A stretch of DNA of 28,327 bases from a virus. Every line of letters starts with the position of its first letter. Positions within the stretch are counted from its first letter, which is position 1. Under the pieces are notes generated by a model, which was not told the origin of the DNA, searched no databases, and worked only from the letters and a program-made list of their open reading frames with translations. This document shows positions 20,657-26,502 of this stretch, piece after piece. The DNA lies in IMG/VR virus record IMGVR_UViG_3300006315_000024, positions 1-28,327 of that record; one strand, given 5' to 3'. Position numbers and translations under genes: made by a program.

Positions 20657-20692
20657 AAAAAAAACAAGAGCAGTAATTAAACTGCCCTTGTT
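20657..20692 (-). terminator. Minus-strand terminator of the accessory operon
   Basis: Read on the minus strand: AACAAG-G-GCAGT, loop TTAATT, ACTGC-T-CTTGTT, then eight T. The stem has 11 pairs with one internal mismatch (20663-20674 with 20681-20692), and the U-tract is the complement of the A-run at 20657-20664. It lies 51 bp past the last minus-strand gene, so it should end that operon. Together with the opposing plus terminator it insulates the two transcription units. Confidence 0.8.
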
Positions 20693-20742
20693 CGTCAACA
20701 TTTATTAAAAAGGTGTAAATATTATGAATTTACTCTAACAAT

Positions 20743-20973
20743 CTACTTGTTTGGAACATAAGTGTCAACTAAGTTGGTTAATATATTCTTTAGTATATTA
20801 ACAAAAATAATTAGCGATTGAGAAGCTGGAACATTCTTAATCATACTTACTAAAAATGTTTCAGAAGTGTAAGCCATAAAAAACAATTCTTGTTCATCTC
20901 CCATGGCTCTATACTTAGTTCCTATCTTCGCTAAATCTTTTTCAATTTGCTTTTGTAGTTCTTTTTGTTTCAT
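20743..20973 (-). CDS. Small hypothetical protein (76 aa), last gene of the minus operon
   Basis: Coupled to the recombinase stop by TAATG (20971-20975). The N-terminal 30 residues are charged helix (KQKELQKQIEKDLAKIGTKY), and the rest is hydrophobic with two likely helices (LFFMAYTSETFLVSMIKNV, LIIFVNILKNILTNLVDTYV), which may associate with membrane. No family is recognised. It lies in the accessory operon after the serine recombinase, and reaches to within 51 bp of the terminator. Confidence 0.5.
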   Translation of the reverse strand: MKQKELQKQIEKDLAKIGTKYRAMGDEQELFFMAYTSETFLVSMIKNVPASQSLIIFVNILKNILTNLVDTYVPNK

Positions 20974-21728
20974 TACATTACCTCTTGATTGATTGCTAAA
21001 CTTTTTTCATATTCTGCTGAGTCAGTTAATATTTTATTAACTGTTTGATGCGTAATTTCTGCTTCTTCATACATAGAATAAGCAGCCGTAACTGATTGTG
21101 CTATAACTCTTAAAGATTTACCCTCACTAGCTAATTTTTTTATTAAAGCAACTGCATCATCTAACCATACGCATTTTATAAAATCTGCGTCTTTGCCTTT
21201 GCCCTCTTTTCTATAACCATAAGGAACTTTACCGCCCATACCATTCTTTACTGCTGGAAAGTCGTGATAAGCAAATTGCCTTTTTCTTTTTGTTCCAGTT
21301 CTGCAATTCTCTTTGACTCGTCTAGCATATTCTTTAGCAAAAACGGCGTGTAGTGATGCTTCAAGACCAACTTTGCTTTTAGCTATGTTGCCTGTGTTTG
21401 GCACAATAACATTAACGCCTTTAACCTTGCAGTCATAAATAAAGTTTTCAAAGATTCTATTATCCCTTGCGAGTCTATCAATGTTAGATGCAAAAATATA
21501 ATCCCCTTCTTTTAGCTGTAATAATTCTTTGCCAAACTTTCTATCTTTAAACTCTAATAGACCTGATATACCTGAATCATCAATGACTTCTGGTTGTGTA
21601 TGTGGACTAATATCTTTTGACTCTTTCAACTTGTTAATTTCAAGAGTGTTTACTTCTTTCTGATTGTTTGCTGATTGATTATCTATCTGTGTTTCAGATG
21701 ATAGTCTTATATAACTAATTACTCTCAT
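20973..21728 (-). CDS. Serine recombinase (resolvase/invertase family)
   Basis: A 251-residue protein with the catalytic N-terminal domain of serine site-specific recombinases: YIRLSS (Arg8 and Ser10, the nucleophile) and SNIDRLARDNRIF (81-93, Arg85 and Arg88). A helix (ASLHAVFAKEYARRVKENCR, about residues 125-144) then leads into a C-terminal region with YGYRKEGKGK and a helix-turn-helix-like end (SEGKSLRVIAQSVTAAYSMY). At 251 residues it is longer than a simple resolvase (about 185) and far shorter than a large serine integrase (over 400), so inversion, resolution or transposition are all possible. No att-like or hix-like inverted site is evident nearby. GGAGATA is the Shine-Dalgarno (21731-21737 region on the minus strand). 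Confidence 0.85.
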   Translation of the reverse strand: MRVISYIRLSSETQIDNQSANNQKEVNTLEINKLKESKDISPHTQPEVIDDSGISGLLEFKDRKFGKELLQLKEGDYIFASNIDRLARDNRIFENFIYDCKVKGVNVIVPNTGNIAKSKVGLEASLHAVFAKEYARRVKENCRTGTKRKRQFAYHDFPAVKNGMGGKVPYGYRKEGKGKDADFIKCVWLDDAVALIKKLASEGKSLRVIAQSVTAAYSMYEEAEITHQTVNKILTDSAEYEKSLAINQEVM

Positions 21729-21740
21729 TGTTATCTCCTT

Positions 21741-22388
21741 CTACATTAATAATAATTGCGTTTCTATATCGGTATCATTTTCATAATACTTACTTTCTTC
21801 CTTTGGATAATCTAATGCTTCATATCTCATTTTAGATTTTATTAATTTTTTATCTCTTTTATTTGCTGTTATATATACATAACGGTGTTTTTTACTTACC
21901 TCTACATACTTATATTTTTCAGGTTCTGCATCTACATCGGCTTTAGATATTCCTCTTGAGTGTTTAAAGCCGTCTTTTAAAGCCCATTCTTTTCTTTTTT
22001 TTGATTCACCTGTGTAAATAAAATTAGTTGCTTGATATACATAACCATTATGATTTTGCCCTGTATCAGCATAGCTTACAACAATTTTTGGTTTAGGAAG
22101 TAATCTTAAAGATTGTCCAACTAAAAACGATGCTTCATTTTTTTTGTTATTTATTAAAACTAATCTATTAAGTTCAAGAACTATTAATCTATATTCTTTA
22201 CCAGCAATAGCATCACATAAATCAGGTGTTCCTGGCATACCATAAGTAACAACTCCTACTAATTCGTTATCTTGATATAAGCCATAAGCATATTGAATCA
22301 TTCCAGGAAGTCTTTTGGCATAATGTATGTTAAGTATAAAAGACTTTGTTTCTTCTTTTTTAATTCTCATTACTTTATAATTTTTCAT
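21741..22388 (-). CDS. Mom-like DNA-modification acyltransferase (GNAT fold)
   Basis: A 215-residue protein with the blocks I associate with the phage Mu Mom family: IHYAKRLPG (21-29), AYGLYQDNELVGVVTYG (34-50), LELNRLVL (71-78), SYADTGQNHNGYVYQATNF (105-123) and YTG. Mom enzymes have a GNAT-like fold and convert adenine in DNA to a bulky N6-carbamoylmethyl-type derivative, which blocks many restriction enzymes. No substrate evidence is in the sequence, and Mu's regulator Com is not visible. The Mu gene depends on prior methylation at GATC; here two DNA methylases are encoded elsewhere in the window. It sits in the accessory operon with ArdC, which fits a counter-restriction role. Confidence in the family is good; activity is inferred. 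Confidence 0.75.
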   Translation of the reverse strand: MKNYKVMRIKKEETKSFILNIHYAKRLPGMIQYAYGLYQDNELVGVVTYGMPGTPDLCDAIAGKEYRLIVLELNRLVLINNKKNEASFLVGQSLRLLPKPKIVVSYADTGQNHNGYVYQATNFIYTGESKKRKEWALKDGFKHSRGISKADVDAEPEKYKYVEVSKKHRYVYITANKRDKKLIKSKMRYEALDYPKEESKYYENDTDIETQLLLM

Positions 22389-22707: not shown

Positions 22708-22935
22708 TCATTTAATAGTTCTTTTAAGTTCTTCGGCTCTAGCTTTAGTTATATTGCCCATTTTAACCATTCTATCCAGTAATTCATTTGGGCTAACAAT
22801 GGCGTCATTAAGTTTAACAAAACTAGGGTTTTCTTTAGCGAACTCCTGTTCCTTATATTCTTCAGCTTCAGCTTTTATTTGTGCTGTAACTTCCGACAAT
22901 TTACCTTTGTATGTTTTAATTAATTTTCTTGTCAT
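22708..22935 (-). CDS. Small helical hypothetical protein (75 aa)
   Basis: ATG overlaps the ART-like stop as ATGA (22932-22935) and has GGAG six bases upstream. The product is a helical, charged protein (SEVTAQIKAEAEEYKEQEFA, then NELLDRMVKMGNITKARAEE). No family is recognised. It is a member of the accessory operon downstream of the ART-like gene; the 64 bp after it contain a duplicated TTGCGTA-type stretch but no gene. Confidence 0.55.
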   Translation of the reverse strand: MTRKLIKTYKGKLSEVTAQIKAEAEEYKEQEFAKENPSFVKLNDAIVSPNELLDRMVKMGNITKARAEELKRTIK

Positions 22936-23531
22936 GCTATCTCCTTTTTGTTTGTTGACATTGTAAATTTAGAATATGGTTTTTGCCATATTTTATGACT
23001 GCAAATATTCTTGTATGAATCACCGCAGTAATATTTATTTTCTAAAGTTATGGTTGGGTCTGAATAGTTAATAATTAATTCAGCATCTAAAATAGTATAG
23101 CGTTTTATGTTCTTTGGTTTTATAACGCCTTTATAACAAGCGTTACCTAAAAACTTTATACTATCTTCAGCAAAGTTTTTATAGTTTAACAATTCATCTC
23201 TAAAAAACTTAGTTCTTTCTTGAATGGTTGTTTTTTCAACAGACGCTTTCCATTCAGGGTCAATTCTTGCCTTTTGTTCAAGATAATCCTCATCAGGATA
23301 TAATCTATCTAACTTTACATTAACCTCAATGACAACTGGGTCAAACTTTCTTTCTGCTACATCATAGGCACATAAAGCAAAGTGAGGTGCATAGCTATCG
23401 GTTAAATAAATCATATCTTTACGGCTTGGAAATTCTTGCCAATTAGATTGATTGTCATGCCTTGGCTTCAACCCATTAGTTAAAATATCATCAAGGTTTT
23501 TAGTTGTTGTTCCGTGATATAATGTTTTCAT
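22932..23531 (-). CDS. ADP-ribosyltransferase-like protein (KptA/ART fold)
   Basis: A 199-residue protein whose first 85 residues read as an ART/KptA-type NAD-binding fold: YHGTTTKNLDDILTNGLKPR (His6 in the H/R-type motif), a following loop, then MIYLTDSYAPHFALCAYDVA (Tyr42 and Thr44, the second motif), and VVIEVNV (Glu69 as possible catalytic Glu). KptA-type enzymes are RNA 2'-phosphotransferases, while relatives ADP-ribosylate proteins or nucleic acids. Phages use ARTs to reprogramme host RNA polymerase and to block defence systems. The C-terminal half (residues 90-199) is not assigned and has several Cys and His. The assignment comes from motif order only. TAATG couples it to the upstream 40-residue gene. 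Confidence 0.65.
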   Translation of the reverse strand: MKTLYHGTTTKNLDDILTNGLKPRHDNQSNWQEFPSRKDMIYLTDSYAPHFALCAYDVAERKFDPVVIEVNVKLDRLYPDEDYLEQKARIDPEWKASVEKTTIQERTKFFRDELLNYKNFAEDSIKFLGNACYKGVIKPKNIKRYTILDAELIINYSDPTITLENKYYCGDSYKNICSHKIWQKPYSKFTMSTNKKEIA

Positions 23532-23840: not shown

Positions 23841-23863
23841 AATAATTTTCCTTTCCTGTATGT

Positions 23864-23892
23864 AAATTATTCTTGATTCGTGTAATTGTCAA
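23864..23892 (-). promoter_or_regulatory. Strong minus-strand promoter candidate inside the accessory operon
   Basis: On the minus strand, TTGACA (23892-23887), an exact sigma-70 -35 consensus, and TAATTT (23869-23864) are separated by 17 bp. The spacer carries ACGAATCA, the motif also seen at 10679-10686 before the replication operon; both promoters share the order ACGAATCA, a few bases, AATAATTTA. A transcript from here would begin about 17 bases before the 65-residue gene. Confidence 0.65.
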
Positions 23893-23903
23893 CTTCAGTT
23901 TGG

Positions 23904-24170
23904 TTATCTTGAATAAATAGCCCAAATTTGATTTCCACCATCAATAAACTTTCTTAAATATTCAAGCATATAATCGTTGGGGTAAAGGTTATGATACTCA
24001 AAACCATATTCTTCCGTTACTTTATTAATAAATTTCACAACAGCTTCTTCTGATTTGCTTCTAAAAAAATCAATTTCATTAGAACTGTTGCCTTCCTCGG
24101 TTAATGTAGCTTCAAAATACTTTGAACTTTCATCTCTTTCACCTTTGGTTATTGTTAATATATATTCCAT
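23904..24170 (-). CDS. Acidic hypothetical protein (88 aa) downstream of hammerhead copy 1
   Basis: ATG at 24170, with AAAGGAG as Shine-Dalgarno in a 37-nt leader that begins at the predicted cleavage site of the hammerhead at 24202-24260. The product is acidic (KGERDESSKYFEATLTEEGN, EEAVVKFINKVTEEYGFEYH) with alternating strands and helices, one Trp near the end (GGNQIWAIYSR). No family is recognised. It is the last gene before the internal promoter at 23864-23892. Its expression would be released from the upstream message by ribozyme cleavage. Confidence 0.55.
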   Translation of the reverse strand: MEYILTITKGERDESSKYFEATLTEEGNSSNEIDFFRSKSEEAVVKFINKVTEEYGFEYHNLYPNDYMLEYLRKFIDGGNQIWAIYSR

Positions 24171-24201
24171 AATATTCTCCTTTATGTTGTTAGACTTAAT
24201 T

Positions 24202-24260
24202 GTCTAGGACTAGGGTAAATAATACCCTAGTTTCGGTTACTTAAACCTCATCAGCTAGAC
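24202..24260 (-). ncRNA. Type I hammerhead ribozyme, copy 1
   Basis: Read on the minus strand: stem I 5' strand GTCTAG (24260-24255); core CTGATGA (24254-24248); stem II GGTT-TAAGT-AACC (24247-24235); core GAAA (24234-24231); stem III CTAGGGT, loop ATTATTT, ACCCTAG (24230-24210); then T and C completing GTC; and stem I 3' strand CTAGAC (24207-24202). All three stems are fully paired, and the CUGANGA, GAAA and GUC core of a hammerhead is complete; stem I is open-ended, so it is type I. Predicted cleavage is after C24208. The 5' part overlaps the last codons and stop (24241-24243) of the 145-residue gene. After cleavage the new 5' end can fold as TAGAC-AATTAA-GTCTA (24206-24191), competing with stem I. 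Cleavage leaves a 37-nt leader on the 88-residue gene. Confidence 0.9.
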
Positions 24261-24678
24261 TGTAAATTTTATAATCTCCTTCTCCGTGTGGGTCGTATTC
24301 AAACTTATCTAAAAGTTCATTCCATTCAGAAGCATAGGGACCTGTTTGATAACTATCATCAAGATAATCCCAAAGCATACCATTAACCGATAGCCCTATA
24401 TTTTCTTCTTCGGTATCAAGCCATACTGAAAATAAATTAATAGATTCTTTCCCCGGTTCTCTTTTGTTGATATGCAATAGGTTTCTTCTAAGACCTGGGT
24501 CTCTATTAGCTTCAATCTCTGGTAAAGCATCGGACAAAGGTTTTTCTAATAACTTATTCAGTTCGTTATCTTCCTTAATCTCCCACCTTGTAAAGTCTTC
24601 CAAGCTATTTAGAACCGCTTTAAAAACTGGCGCTAATTGATGATTGGTATTTATATTAAATAATTTTAAATATTCCAT
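24241..24678 (-). CDS. Acidic hypothetical protein (145 aa) whose 3' end encodes part of a hammerhead
   Basis: ATG 24678 is coupled to the previous stop (TAATG). The product is acidic and Leu-rich (HQLAPVFKAVLNSLEDFTRW, then GLSVNGMLWDYLDDSYQTGP), with no recognised motif. Its last five codons and stop (LADEV) are written by CTAGCTGATGAGGTTTAA, which is also the 5' strand of stem I, the CUGAUGA core and half of stem II of hammerhead copy 1. The C-terminal residues are therefore under dual constraint. Function unknown. Confidence 0.55.
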   Translation of the reverse strand: MEYLKLFNINTNHQLAPVFKAVLNSLEDFTRWEIKEDNELNKLLEKPLSDALPEIEANRDPGLRRNLLHINKREPGKESINLFSVWLDTEEENIGLSVNGMLWDYLDDSYQTGPYASEWNELLDKFEYDPHGEGDYKIYSLADEV

Positions 24679-24854
24679 TATTTTTCTCCTAAATTTATAT
24701 AATTACTAAAATCACCAAGTTCATAACTAACCCATTCGCTTTCATGGTCATCATTCTTAGCTTTTTCGATAGCTTCTTCTTTTGATTTAGCTGGTATATC
24801 AATTTCAACATAATCCTTGCGAACGGCTATTATTTTATATGTTTTTTCAATCAT
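24678..24854 (-). CDS. Small protein (58 aa), DpnD/PcfM-like
   Basis: ATG at 24854 and TAA at 24678-24680, both overlapping neighbours as TAATG. The product (MIEKTYKIIAVRKDYVEIDI...) has a strand, then the helix KSKEEAIEKAKNDDH, then ESEWVSYELGDF. The pattern strand, then SxEEAIExAK helix, then acidic strand is that of DpnD/PcfM-like small proteins found on plasmids and phages, whose function is unknown. The similarity is by motif only. Confidence 0.55.
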   Translation of the reverse strand: MIEKTYKIIAVRKDYVEIDIPAKSKEEAIEKAKNDDHESEWVSYELGDFSNYINLGEK

Positions 24855-25030
24855 TAGTCTTCCTCCCCTATTTTAATCATAGCATCAACCCAAGCGTCTA
24901 TTCTGGCTTGGTCTGATTTATCACTTGGTAAGTCAAGGCATGATTGTATGCCTAGAACTATCAAAGCTATAAAACAAGAGGCGAAGAAAACACCCCAAGT
25001 TATTAAAAATGTTGTTATAAAAGTTTCCAT
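24854..25030 (-). CDS. Small membrane protein (58 aa) downstream of hammerhead copy 2
   Basis: ATG at 25030 with AAGGAAAA as ribosome site; TAA overlaps the next ATG (TAATG, 24852-24856). One membrane segment spans about residues 5-28 (ITTFLITWGVFFASCFIALI), followed by a charged helical tail (CLDLPSDKSDQARIDAWVDA, then MIKIGEED). No family is recognised. The 37-nt leader starts exactly at the predicted cleavage site of hammerhead copy 2, as for the 88-residue gene after copy 1. Confidence 0.6.
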   Translation of the reverse strand: METFITTFLITWGVFFASCFIALIVLGIQSCLDLPSDKSDQARIDAWVDAMIKIGEED

Positions 25031-25061
25031 AATATTTTCCTTTTTTGTTGTTGGCTTTATT

Positions 25062-25119
25062 GCCTAAGACTAGGTCAGTTAAGACCTAGTTTCGGATATA
25101 TAATCCTCGTCAGTTAGGC
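25062..25119 (-). ncRNA. Type I hammerhead ribozyme, copy 2
   Basis: Read on the minus strand: stem I 5' strand GCCTAA (25119-25114); core CTGACGA (25113-25107); stem II GGAT-TATAT-ATCC (25106-25094); core GAAA (25093-25090); stem III CTAGGTC, loop TTAACT, GACCTAG (25089-25070); T and C completing GTC; stem I 3' strand TTAGGC (25067-25062). All stems pair perfectly, and each differs from copy 1 by paired changes on both sides. Predicted cleavage is after C25068, giving a 37-nt leader before the 58-residue membrane protein, the same length as copy 1. The stem I 5' strand is the last codon and stop of the ArdC-like gene. The new 5' end can pair GGC (25064-25062) with GCC (25055-25053) around AATAAA, again competing with stem I. 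Confidence 0.9.
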
Positions 25120-26088
25120 TGACTTTGATACCTCCTTTTCCTGTTGTTCTGCTAGGCATGAATTATCAATAATGAACTGACTGGCTTTAGATGCTTTGGA
25201 GATAGCTTTCACAATGTATCGGCTATCTTCTCTGTATCTTCTGTTCCAGCTTTTAAGATAACTAGCATGGTTCATTGGTGGACTTACTGTAAGACCAGTA
25301 TGACCTGACATAAATACCGCTGTAAATTCCGCTATCAGTTCCTCAAAGGCATATTCGTCATCGCCGAACATATTGTTGAAAGGTCTTTTGAGTCTTGATT
25401 CGTGACCTGTGCTATGTCCAATCTCGTGTAATAATGTTGATTTATAACTATGGTCTGCCGTTACGCCATTATCAAAAAAGGATGACCTTTCTGGCATTCC
25501 GATAAAGTCACCGCTAGGACTGTAAAACGCTCGGTTGCCACCTTCTTTTAGTTCGATATTCTGACTAGCTAAGTATGAGTCTATAACCTTTTGGGTTAAG
25601 TCCATATTAACCGTCATATCGGTTGGTCTTTTTCTACAGTAAGGTTCGCAAGTATCACCAAGTTCTCCTGATTTCATATTAACAACCTGACTTGCATTAA
25701 AAACGCTATAAACCTTATAAACAAAGTATTTGACTCTTTGCTTCATAACGCCGTCAACCTCTACATCTTCAATAATTGGTGAAGAAAAGATAATTGCGGT
25801 GGATTTTTCACCCTTCTGAACTTTAAATCCTTTGGATTGCCAGTTCTTGAAAGTCCCCCAATAATCTGACTTAAAATTATTTTGATGCTTAACCCAAGGT
25901 AATACTAAAGCGTTATAACCTTTATACGGCGTGCCGTCTTGGTTCATAGCTTGACCATCTGACCAATTCTTTGACCAGTGATTAGAACCTGGCTGGTTCA
26001 TCATCTCAATAATATTTTCGGACATAAATCGTTCAACCTCTTTTTTAACTGCTGAACCTTTAAGACCTTTGATTTGTAATTTATTCAT
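25114..26088 (-). CDS. ardC: ArdC-like antirestriction protein
   Basis: A 324-residue protein with both ArdC parts. The N-terminal ssDNA-binding domain covers about residues 10-150 (GYNALVLPW, YWGTFKNWQSKGFKVQKGEK, FVYKVYSVFNASQV), including the pattern WxTxxxxxxxGxxVxKGEK. The C-terminal zincin-like peptidase domain has HEIGH (221-225, zinc-binding HExxH) and AFEELIAEF (247-255, third ligand Glu). Plasmid ArdC binds single-stranded DNA and protects incoming DNA from restriction; the peptidase activity is not established. It is the first gene of the minus-strand operon, after a promoter and AGGAGG ribosome site, as expected for an early counter-defence gene. The gene ends inside hammerhead copy 2. 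Confidence 0.85.
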   Translation of the reverse strand: MNKLQIKGLKGSAVKKEVERFMSENIIEMMNQPGSNHWSKNWSDGQAMNQDGTPYKGYNALVLPWVKHQNNFKSDYWGTFKNWQSKGFKVQKGEKSTAIIFSSPIIEDVEVDGVMKQRVKYFVYKVYSVFNASQVVNMKSGELGDTCEPYCRKRPTDMTVNMDLTQKVIDSYLASQNIELKEGGNRAFYSPSGDFIGMPERSSFFDNGVTADHSYKSTLLHEIGHSTGHESRLKRPFNNMFGDDEYAFEELIAEFTAVFMSGHTGLTVSPPMNHASYLKSWNRRYREDSRYIVKAISKASKASQFIIDNSCLAEQQEKEVSKSA

Positions 26089-26161: not shown

Positions 26162-26454
26162 CATAAACTGAAAGAAATTTACATAATAATTTTAAATAAA
26201 TAAAAATAACTGTTGATAACTTTGTTGATAACTTTTGAGATTGCATTGGTTTTTAGCGTTTGCAATCTATTATGTATAAACTTTTGACTGATTGCATTAT
26301 TGCAAATGATTGCATTGGTTTCTATTTATTTAATTAAATCAATAGTTTAGAAGATTGCAAGATTGCATTTAATAACTTTTATACTTTTAAACGCTCATAA
26401 AGATTGCATGATTGCATTGTTTCAATAGCGTATATATACGCTATGAAATGCAAT
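26162..26454. other. Iteron-rich control region, candidate replication origin
   Basis: The gap 26089-26536 has no gene. From 26162 to 26210 it is almost pure A/T. Two DnaA-box-like nonamers TGTTGATAA follow at 26211-26219 and 26223-26231 (one mismatch from TGTGGATAA). Then come seven direct copies of GATTGCAT or GATTGCAA starting at 26239, 26290, 26308, 26353, 26361, 26402 and 26410. Inverted copies are TGCAATC (26261-26267) and ATGCAAT (26448-26454). Two pairs are spaced exactly 8 bp apart, head to tail. AT-rich stretch, DnaA-like boxes and iterons together resemble an origin of replication; an array of operator sites for a phage regulator controlling the divergent operons is the main alternative. 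Confidence 0.6.
26425..26444. promoter_or_regulatory. 20-bp perfect palindrome within a larger inverted repeat
   Basis: ATAGCGTATA followed by its exact complement TATACGCTAT. It lies inside an imperfect larger inverted repeat from ATTGCAT (26411-26417) to ATGCAAT (26448-26454), with TTTCA and TGAAA also pairing. It is 30 bp upstream of the promoter for the small-terminase-like gene, so it could be an operator for that or the minus-strand operon, or a cruciform or initiation site within the origin-like region. Confidence 0.6.
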
Positions 26455-26473
26455 TTGCTATTTGAGTCAGTAA

Positions 26474-26502
26474 TTGAATCTTTTATTAAATAAGATTATA
26501 TT
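26474..26502 (+). promoter_or_regulatory. Plus-strand promoter for the small-terminase-like gene
   Basis: TTGAAT (26474-26479) and TATATT (26497-26502) are 17 bp apart. The start would be about 27 bases before the ATG at 26537, which has AAGGA at 26523-26527 and ACGAATCA (26527-26534) between the ribosome site and the start codon. Confidence 0.55.

Follow-up and report, generated by a model that had tools for sequence, protein, structure and literature searches.

Tandem hammerhead ribozymes in a marine phage operon: candidate natural separators of neighbouring messages

The window analysed here, the whole 28,327-nucleotide stretch that makes up positions 1 to 28,327 of the marine phage record IMGVR_UViG_3300006315_000024, is a tailed-phage contig encoding a terminase, a virion protein, a primase/helicase and a DNA methyltransferase. 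On its minus strand lies an apparent operon that begins with an ArdC gene and proceeds through small genes, a Mom-like gene and a resolvase gene to a candidate terminator. The first gene (25114..26088) encodes a 324-aa ArdC-type antirestriction protein (Pfam ArdcN and MPTase-PolyVal; PHROG 7245, anti-restriction). It is followed by two 58-aa genes (24854..25030 and 24678..24854) and a 145-aa gene (24241..24678), all three without a family match, and then by an 88-aa gene (23904..24170). The N-terminal half of the first 58-aa protein is hydrophobic, so that this is probably a small membrane protein. Further downstream are the Mom-like DNA modification gene (21741-22388), the resolvase gene (20973-21728) and, at the operon end, a candidate intrinsic terminator with a 13-bp stem and a T run (20662..20693, a consensus match only). 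A 199-aa protein encoded on the same strand (22932-23531) shows weak N-terminal similarity to KptA/PARP-type transferases and, because this protein and the Mom-like protein are encoded along with ArdC, the theme of the operon may be counter-defence; a search for defence families gave no match for ArdC, four of the small genes or the 199-aa protein. Promoter-like sites, scored as consensus matches only, occur at the chance level (33 versus 31.4), and therefore neither support nor contradict the presence of separate promoters. Between the ArdC gene and the divergent gene for a terminase-small-subunit-like protein, the region 26180-26480 contains dense TGCAAT/ATTGCA-type repeats that, judged by eye, appear iteron-like.

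Two of the intergenic regions of this operon harbour hammerhead ribozymes, both on the minus strand. Ribozyme 1 (25062..25119) follows the ArdC gene, with the predicted cut between positions 25068 and 25067, and ribozyme 2 (24202..24260) follows the 145-aa gene, with the predicted cut between 24208 and 24207. Both copies contain the exact core CUGANGA...GAAA...UH, which is perfect and ends in UC, and around which the folds and the model alignments place three helices, an open stem I and loop-closed stems II and III, of 6, 4 and 7-8 bp, respectively. Stem I is formed by GCCUAA/UUAGGC in ribozyme 1 (core CUGACGA...GAAA) and by GUCUAG/CUAGAC in ribozyme 2 (core CUGAUGA...GAAA). By core and helices, both copies are type-I hammerheads, for which self-cleavage is predicted. 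They score 70.2 and 69.9 bits against R1, a covariance model built here from 63 viral hammerheads that include both window copies, compared with 12 bits for the next-best match within the window; the fold z-scores are -4.6 and -4.2, and the strict scanner finds no match in 200 dinucleotide-shuffled windows. Thus, the two hammerheads that had been proposed on inspection of the letters are confirmed. The search of Rfam reported copy 2 only as a sub-threshold match to the RAGATH-1 hammerhead (RF03152; 28.2 bits versus the cut-off of 56.3) and did not report copy 1; RAGATH-1 is the sole Rfam family to match copy 2, and the extra upstream hairpin of its model is mostly mispaired there. In alignment A2, stem I is flanked by conserved unpaired nucleotides, an A ahead of it and AA behind it, which are suggestive of a possible tertiary contact of the stem I region with loop II.

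Ribozymes of this kind recur in viral contigs, for which three pattern scans returned at least 120 stretches each, so that all hammerhead counts given here are lower bounds. The first set contains at least 189 hammerheads by the strict scanner and, with some contigs present under two locus numbers, provides 75 representatives of 129 distinct usable sequences; the second set contains at least 231 hammerheads in at least 172 loci and adds 207 new representatives, where representatives taken from the same phage are only partly independent and viral contigs are often fragments. Stem I of at least 5 bp is present in 98 of the 100 distinct matches listed, compared with 13.5% when the flanks are permuted, and the first database pattern had left stem I out. 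Covariation in the stems is strong over the 63 relatives, with the caveat that the scanner itself demanded 3 bp per stem. The longest array encountered comprises seven tandem hammerheads on one strand within ∼4.5 kb (L183, 8688-13236, minus strand), and in most of the copies listed, the stem-I arm recurs in the leader (TGTGG...CCCAC, CGTGG...CCAC, AGTGG...CCAC). Variant hammerheads with a weak stem II (CTGATGA-AGG-TTAAT-CCA-GAAA), scoring 55-57 bits and overlooked by the strict scanner, occur in the window's family (L094, 1060-1121 and 1672-1733, plus strand; L016, 2542-2603, minus strand).

Two or more hammerheads are found in at least 52 loci of the first set and at least 36 of the second, invariably on one strand (52/52 and 36/36). 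Given that this tandem cutting arrangement is common among phage hammerheads, one could envisage that the function is excision, with the two cuts freeing an RNA of ∼860 nt that carries a 5′-OH and a 2′,3′-cyclic phosphate and is circularised by the ribozymes or by a host ligase. Two cuts on the same strand indeed yield chemically ligatable ends. The two stem I arms in the window differ, however, which disfavours cross-pairing of the segment ends, and single hammerheads are common (136 of the 172 loci of the second set, among the matches listed); furthermore, the main text of Perreault et al. describes a search for spliced or circular products in which none were found (PMC3088659). We therefore regard excision as extremely unlikely.

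Viral hammerheads are intergenic and always co-oriented with the genes, and in 67 of 68 representatives, the stop codon of the upstream ORF ends between -5 and +20 nt from the first base of stem I. The window follows this pattern: in ribozyme 1, the ArdC stop codon (TAA, 25116-25114) falls in the 5′ arm of stem I, whereas in ribozyme 2, the frame of the 145-aa gene crosses both stem I and the core to terminate in stem-loop II (24243-24241), and both predicted cuts leave the upstream gene intact, with its stop codon 5′ of the cut. The stem-I zone contains the stop in 75% of the cases, compared with 14% for random positions in the same contigs. That the stop falls inside the ribozyme in 44 of the 68 representatives (stem I arm, 32; CUGANGA core, 9; stem-loop II, 3) and in 101 of 183 in the second sample is compatible with a conditional switch, that is, a regulated ribozyme with partial cutting set by upstream translation or by the speed of transcription, where a terminating ribosome would cover the 5′ strand of the ribozyme and a hairpin in the leader would steal stem I; the overlap may, however, reflect simple genome economy.

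Each predicted cut is followed by a leader that contains a ribosome site, AAAAAAGGA in leader 1 (25031..25067) and UAAAGGAG in leader 2 (24171..24207), both on the minus strand. The sequence-only reading had described these leaders as identical and 37 nt long. The distance from the cut to the ATG is indeed exactly 37 nt in both copies (25067-25031 and 24207-24171), and the layout is shared (AACAACA, then AAAAAAGGA or TAAAGGA, then AATATT-ATG), but the leaders, although equal in length, are not identical, with 26 of 37 ungapped matches (∼70%, counted by eye). Neither does their length hold as a functional constraint: the distance is 38 nt in one close relative (copy 1 of L004) and 36 nt in another (copy 1 of L006), and over 70 viral representatives, the median is 30.5 nt with an interquartile range of 25-42 nt. 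Such variation rules out 37 nt as a conserved ruler, and the equal spacing is best read as the result of descent of both copies from one ribozyme-plus-leader cassette of ∼93 nt. Unmasking of the ribosome site is unlikely to be the main effect of cleavage, with the predicted accessibility approximately equal before and after the cut in both window copies (0.55 and 0.56 for the first, 0.61 and 0.55 for the second), so that any effect, such as the stoichiometry control suggested in the sequence-only reading, is likelier to be mediated by stability or uncoupling.

In the window's family, all ArdC genes that are visible up to their 3′ end are followed by a hammerhead, and the genes behind the hammerheads differ. 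Measured from immediately ahead of stem I up to the ATG, the cassette spans 91-95 nt in this family. The ribozyme and leader of copy 2 show 97% and 94% identity over ∼100 nt to those of two other contigs (L110 and L066, respectively) in which the downstream genes are unrelated. In L006, the homologous stretch takes in the leader and the opening codons, breaks off where an unrelated gene stands in place of the 88-aa gene, and picks up again beyond it. Such boundaries of gene exchange marked by cassettes, along with the recurrence of near-identical cassettes inside one genome (L083 and L062), could be taken to indicate that the ribozyme-plus-leader unit is a passive repeat, either a recombination hotspot or a selfish element that rides with small genes and cuts without benefit. 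This appears very unlikely, considering that the ribozyme cores and pairing are kept intact while full-length ArdC identity to the window drops to 48%, that stem III of L006 has accumulated compensatory changes, and that the units are always co-oriented with genes and always located between them.

Both leaders are predicted to form a 5′-terminal hairpin directly 3′ of the cut, ahead of the ribosome site (leader folding p 0.01-0.02): GGC-AAUAAA-GCC in leader 1 (25064-25053) and UAGAC-AAUUAA-GUCUA in leader 2 (24206-24191), on the minus strand. In each case, the 5′ arm of the hairpin is the 3′ arm of stem I, and hence the ribozyme fold and the leader hairpin are mutually exclusive. In the growing RNA, the predicted probability of stem I is 0.95-0.99 up to 12 nt beyond the cut; with 15 nt, the values for the two copies are 0.80 and 0.98, and with 18 nt, they are 0.36 and 0.18. 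For the complete RNA, the inactive structure has the lowest predicted energy, in a calculation where the folding energies take no account of tertiary contacts.

The hairpin is not peculiar to the window. A significant leader hairpin was detected in 24 of 61 hammerhead leaders compared with 6 of 128 leaders of other genes from the same contigs (p 5e-9), starting at median nucleotide 2, and in an independent second sample in 30 of 130 compared with 27 of 433 controls (p 3e-7). Reuse of the stem-I arm by the hairpin was observed 13 and 26 times in the two samples, compared with 2.1 and 8.1 in leader-swapping controls. A sizeable minority of phage hammerheads (39% and 23%), but not all of them, carry the leader hairpin. 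Inside the window's own family, the covariation of this hairpin is weak, with 87.3% of cells paired versus 86.4% when shuffled, so that the case for it is made by the comparison between families. A 5′ hairpin over the core was also considered as a general feature and rejected (p 0.14); in the window copies, it occurs only within the alternative fold. Further points in favour of a translation-sensitive switch, the main rival to the separator function discussed below, are that the two folds exclude each other, with stem I giving way once 15 to 18 nt have been made beyond the cut, and that the reuse of stem I exceeds chance. However, cutting by hammerheads with loop contacts is usually rapid and precedes the emergence of the leader hairpin, and the competing hairpin is absent from many phage hammerheads, so that, on balance, regulation of this kind seems unlikely.

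We consider it probable that these ribozymes are natural, RiboJ-like intergenic separators that detach neighbouring messages and provide the downstream ones with a hairpin-capped 5′-OH end. This reading builds on anatomy, covariation, gene position, hairpin enrichment and cassette conservation between unrelated genes, all of which are apparent in the sequences, whereas we infer that a common transcript exists, that it is cleaved in infected cells, and that stabilisation, insulation and effects on protein ratios ensue. A common transcript, headed by ardC, is assumed to run through both ribozymes, each of which would fold and cut itself during transcription, giving rise to an ArdC segment, a segment with the 58-58-145 aa genes and a third one that starts with the 88-aa gene and continues onward. 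Each upstream message would retain its stop codon and end in the ribozyme stem-loops, and each downstream message would start with a 5′-OH, immediately followed by the small hairpin into which the 3′ arm of stem I is drawn. Hammerhead cutting leaves a 5′-OH, and such ends escape 5′-end-dependent decay; formation of the hairpin should additionally aid product release, hinder re-joining and protect the new 5′ end. The likely benefit is that the stability and expression of neighbouring genes would be uncoupled, and therefore the ∼93-nt cassette could precede exchangeable genes. Counting against the separator function are the ribozyme-free gene junctions that the segments also hold, the inactive lowest-energy fold, the presence of the hairpin in only a minority of hammerheads and its weak covariation in the window's own family. 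A more elaborate possibility, to which we would attach only tentative credence, is that many phage intergenic hammerheads are self-displacing insulators: a leader that carries a second 5′ arm of stem I would yield a ribozyme before the cut or a hairpin-capped end after it, and the built-in upstream stop would make cutting one-way and translation-sensitive, allowing phages to shuffle genes behind a standard separator.

Partition of a long transcript by clustered hammerheads that flank genes or short blocks of genes in prophages has been proposed previously (Perreault et al. 2011, PMC3088659). As reported in the main text of that work, three tandem arrays were shown to cut in vitro, and one of them, the triple A. 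tumefaciens array that flanks the antirestriction gene ardA, also cuts in E. coli (PMC3088659). The sequence-only reading had held the partition of the operon to be the most likely undescribed system in the window. Two intergenic, co-oriented ribozymes would indeed split it into the ArdC, 58-58-145 aa and 88-aa-onward parts, and to that extent the proposal stands, now with a precedent; the claim that the leaders are identical does not survive, and neither does the undescribed status because tandem, transcript-dividing phage hammerheads, including those flanking ardA, were published and shown to cut in 2011, as the main text documents (PMC3088659). The arrangement in the window resembles those arrays, as the same text presents them, in that two or more one-strand hammerheads flank phage genes or blocks, but here the antirestriction gene is ardC and lies upstream of the first ribozyme, and the host genome is that of a marine phage. 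A further parallel described there is the HHphage of haloviruses HF1/HF2, a hammerhead located 13 nt upstream of a phage gene, for which a transcript 5′ end was mapped near the cut site; it differs in being a core variant, found in archaeal viruses as a single copy (PMC3088659).

In RiboJ, a hammerhead is followed by a hairpin, mRNA is increased about twofold and protein two- to tenfold, and the terminal hairpin has been suggested as the reason (PMC6206723). The likeness extends to the order of the elements, hammerhead, direct hairpin and ribosome site, which places a hairpin at the start of the cut message, but RiboJ is synthetic, goes back to a plant satellite RNA and is positioned downstream of promoters, whereas the elements described here are natural and intergenic, and their hairpin shares an arm with stem I (PMC6206723). 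Nature seems to use the engineered layout of RiboJ. What appears to be new here are the statistics on the leader hairpin, stem-I reuse and stop overlap, the tandem arrangement itself having been published, as the main text of the 2011 report makes clear; that main text does not describe a 5′-terminal hairpin, stem-I reuse or stop-codon overlap (PMC3088659). The open-licence literature, the only one searched, yielded no report of phage hammerheads with either a 5′ hairpin or an overlapping stop codon, which is therefore weak evidence of the novelty of these features.

The role of hammerheads in bacteria and phages has been left open since 2011, and these statistics, together with the one-strand arrays of up to seven and the conservation of the cassette in front of unrelated genes, turn ‘transcript processing’ into specific, mutable predictions. 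Hammerheads are absent from eight whole records of named phages with ArdC homologues and from phiM5 and three metagenomic phages with related terminases. A cultured phage that does carry one and so offers a laboratory system is Flavobacterium phage vB_FspP_elemoB_14-3B (MT497068.1; L135, 2493-2577; 56.6 bits). Its protein QMP84934.1 has an annotated GTG start within the ribozyme, the likelier start being an in-frame ATG 28 nt past the cut, and an unannotated short ORF terminates at the hammerhead. Back in the window, the junction between the 88-aa gene and a 65-aa gene (23841-23906, minus strand) is without a hammerhead and contains instead the stretch ACTGAA...ACACGAATCAA...TTACATACAGGAAAGGA, which recurs at gene junctions of five relatives (L004, L121, L016, L062 and L083) and is possibly another RNA element or a promoter.
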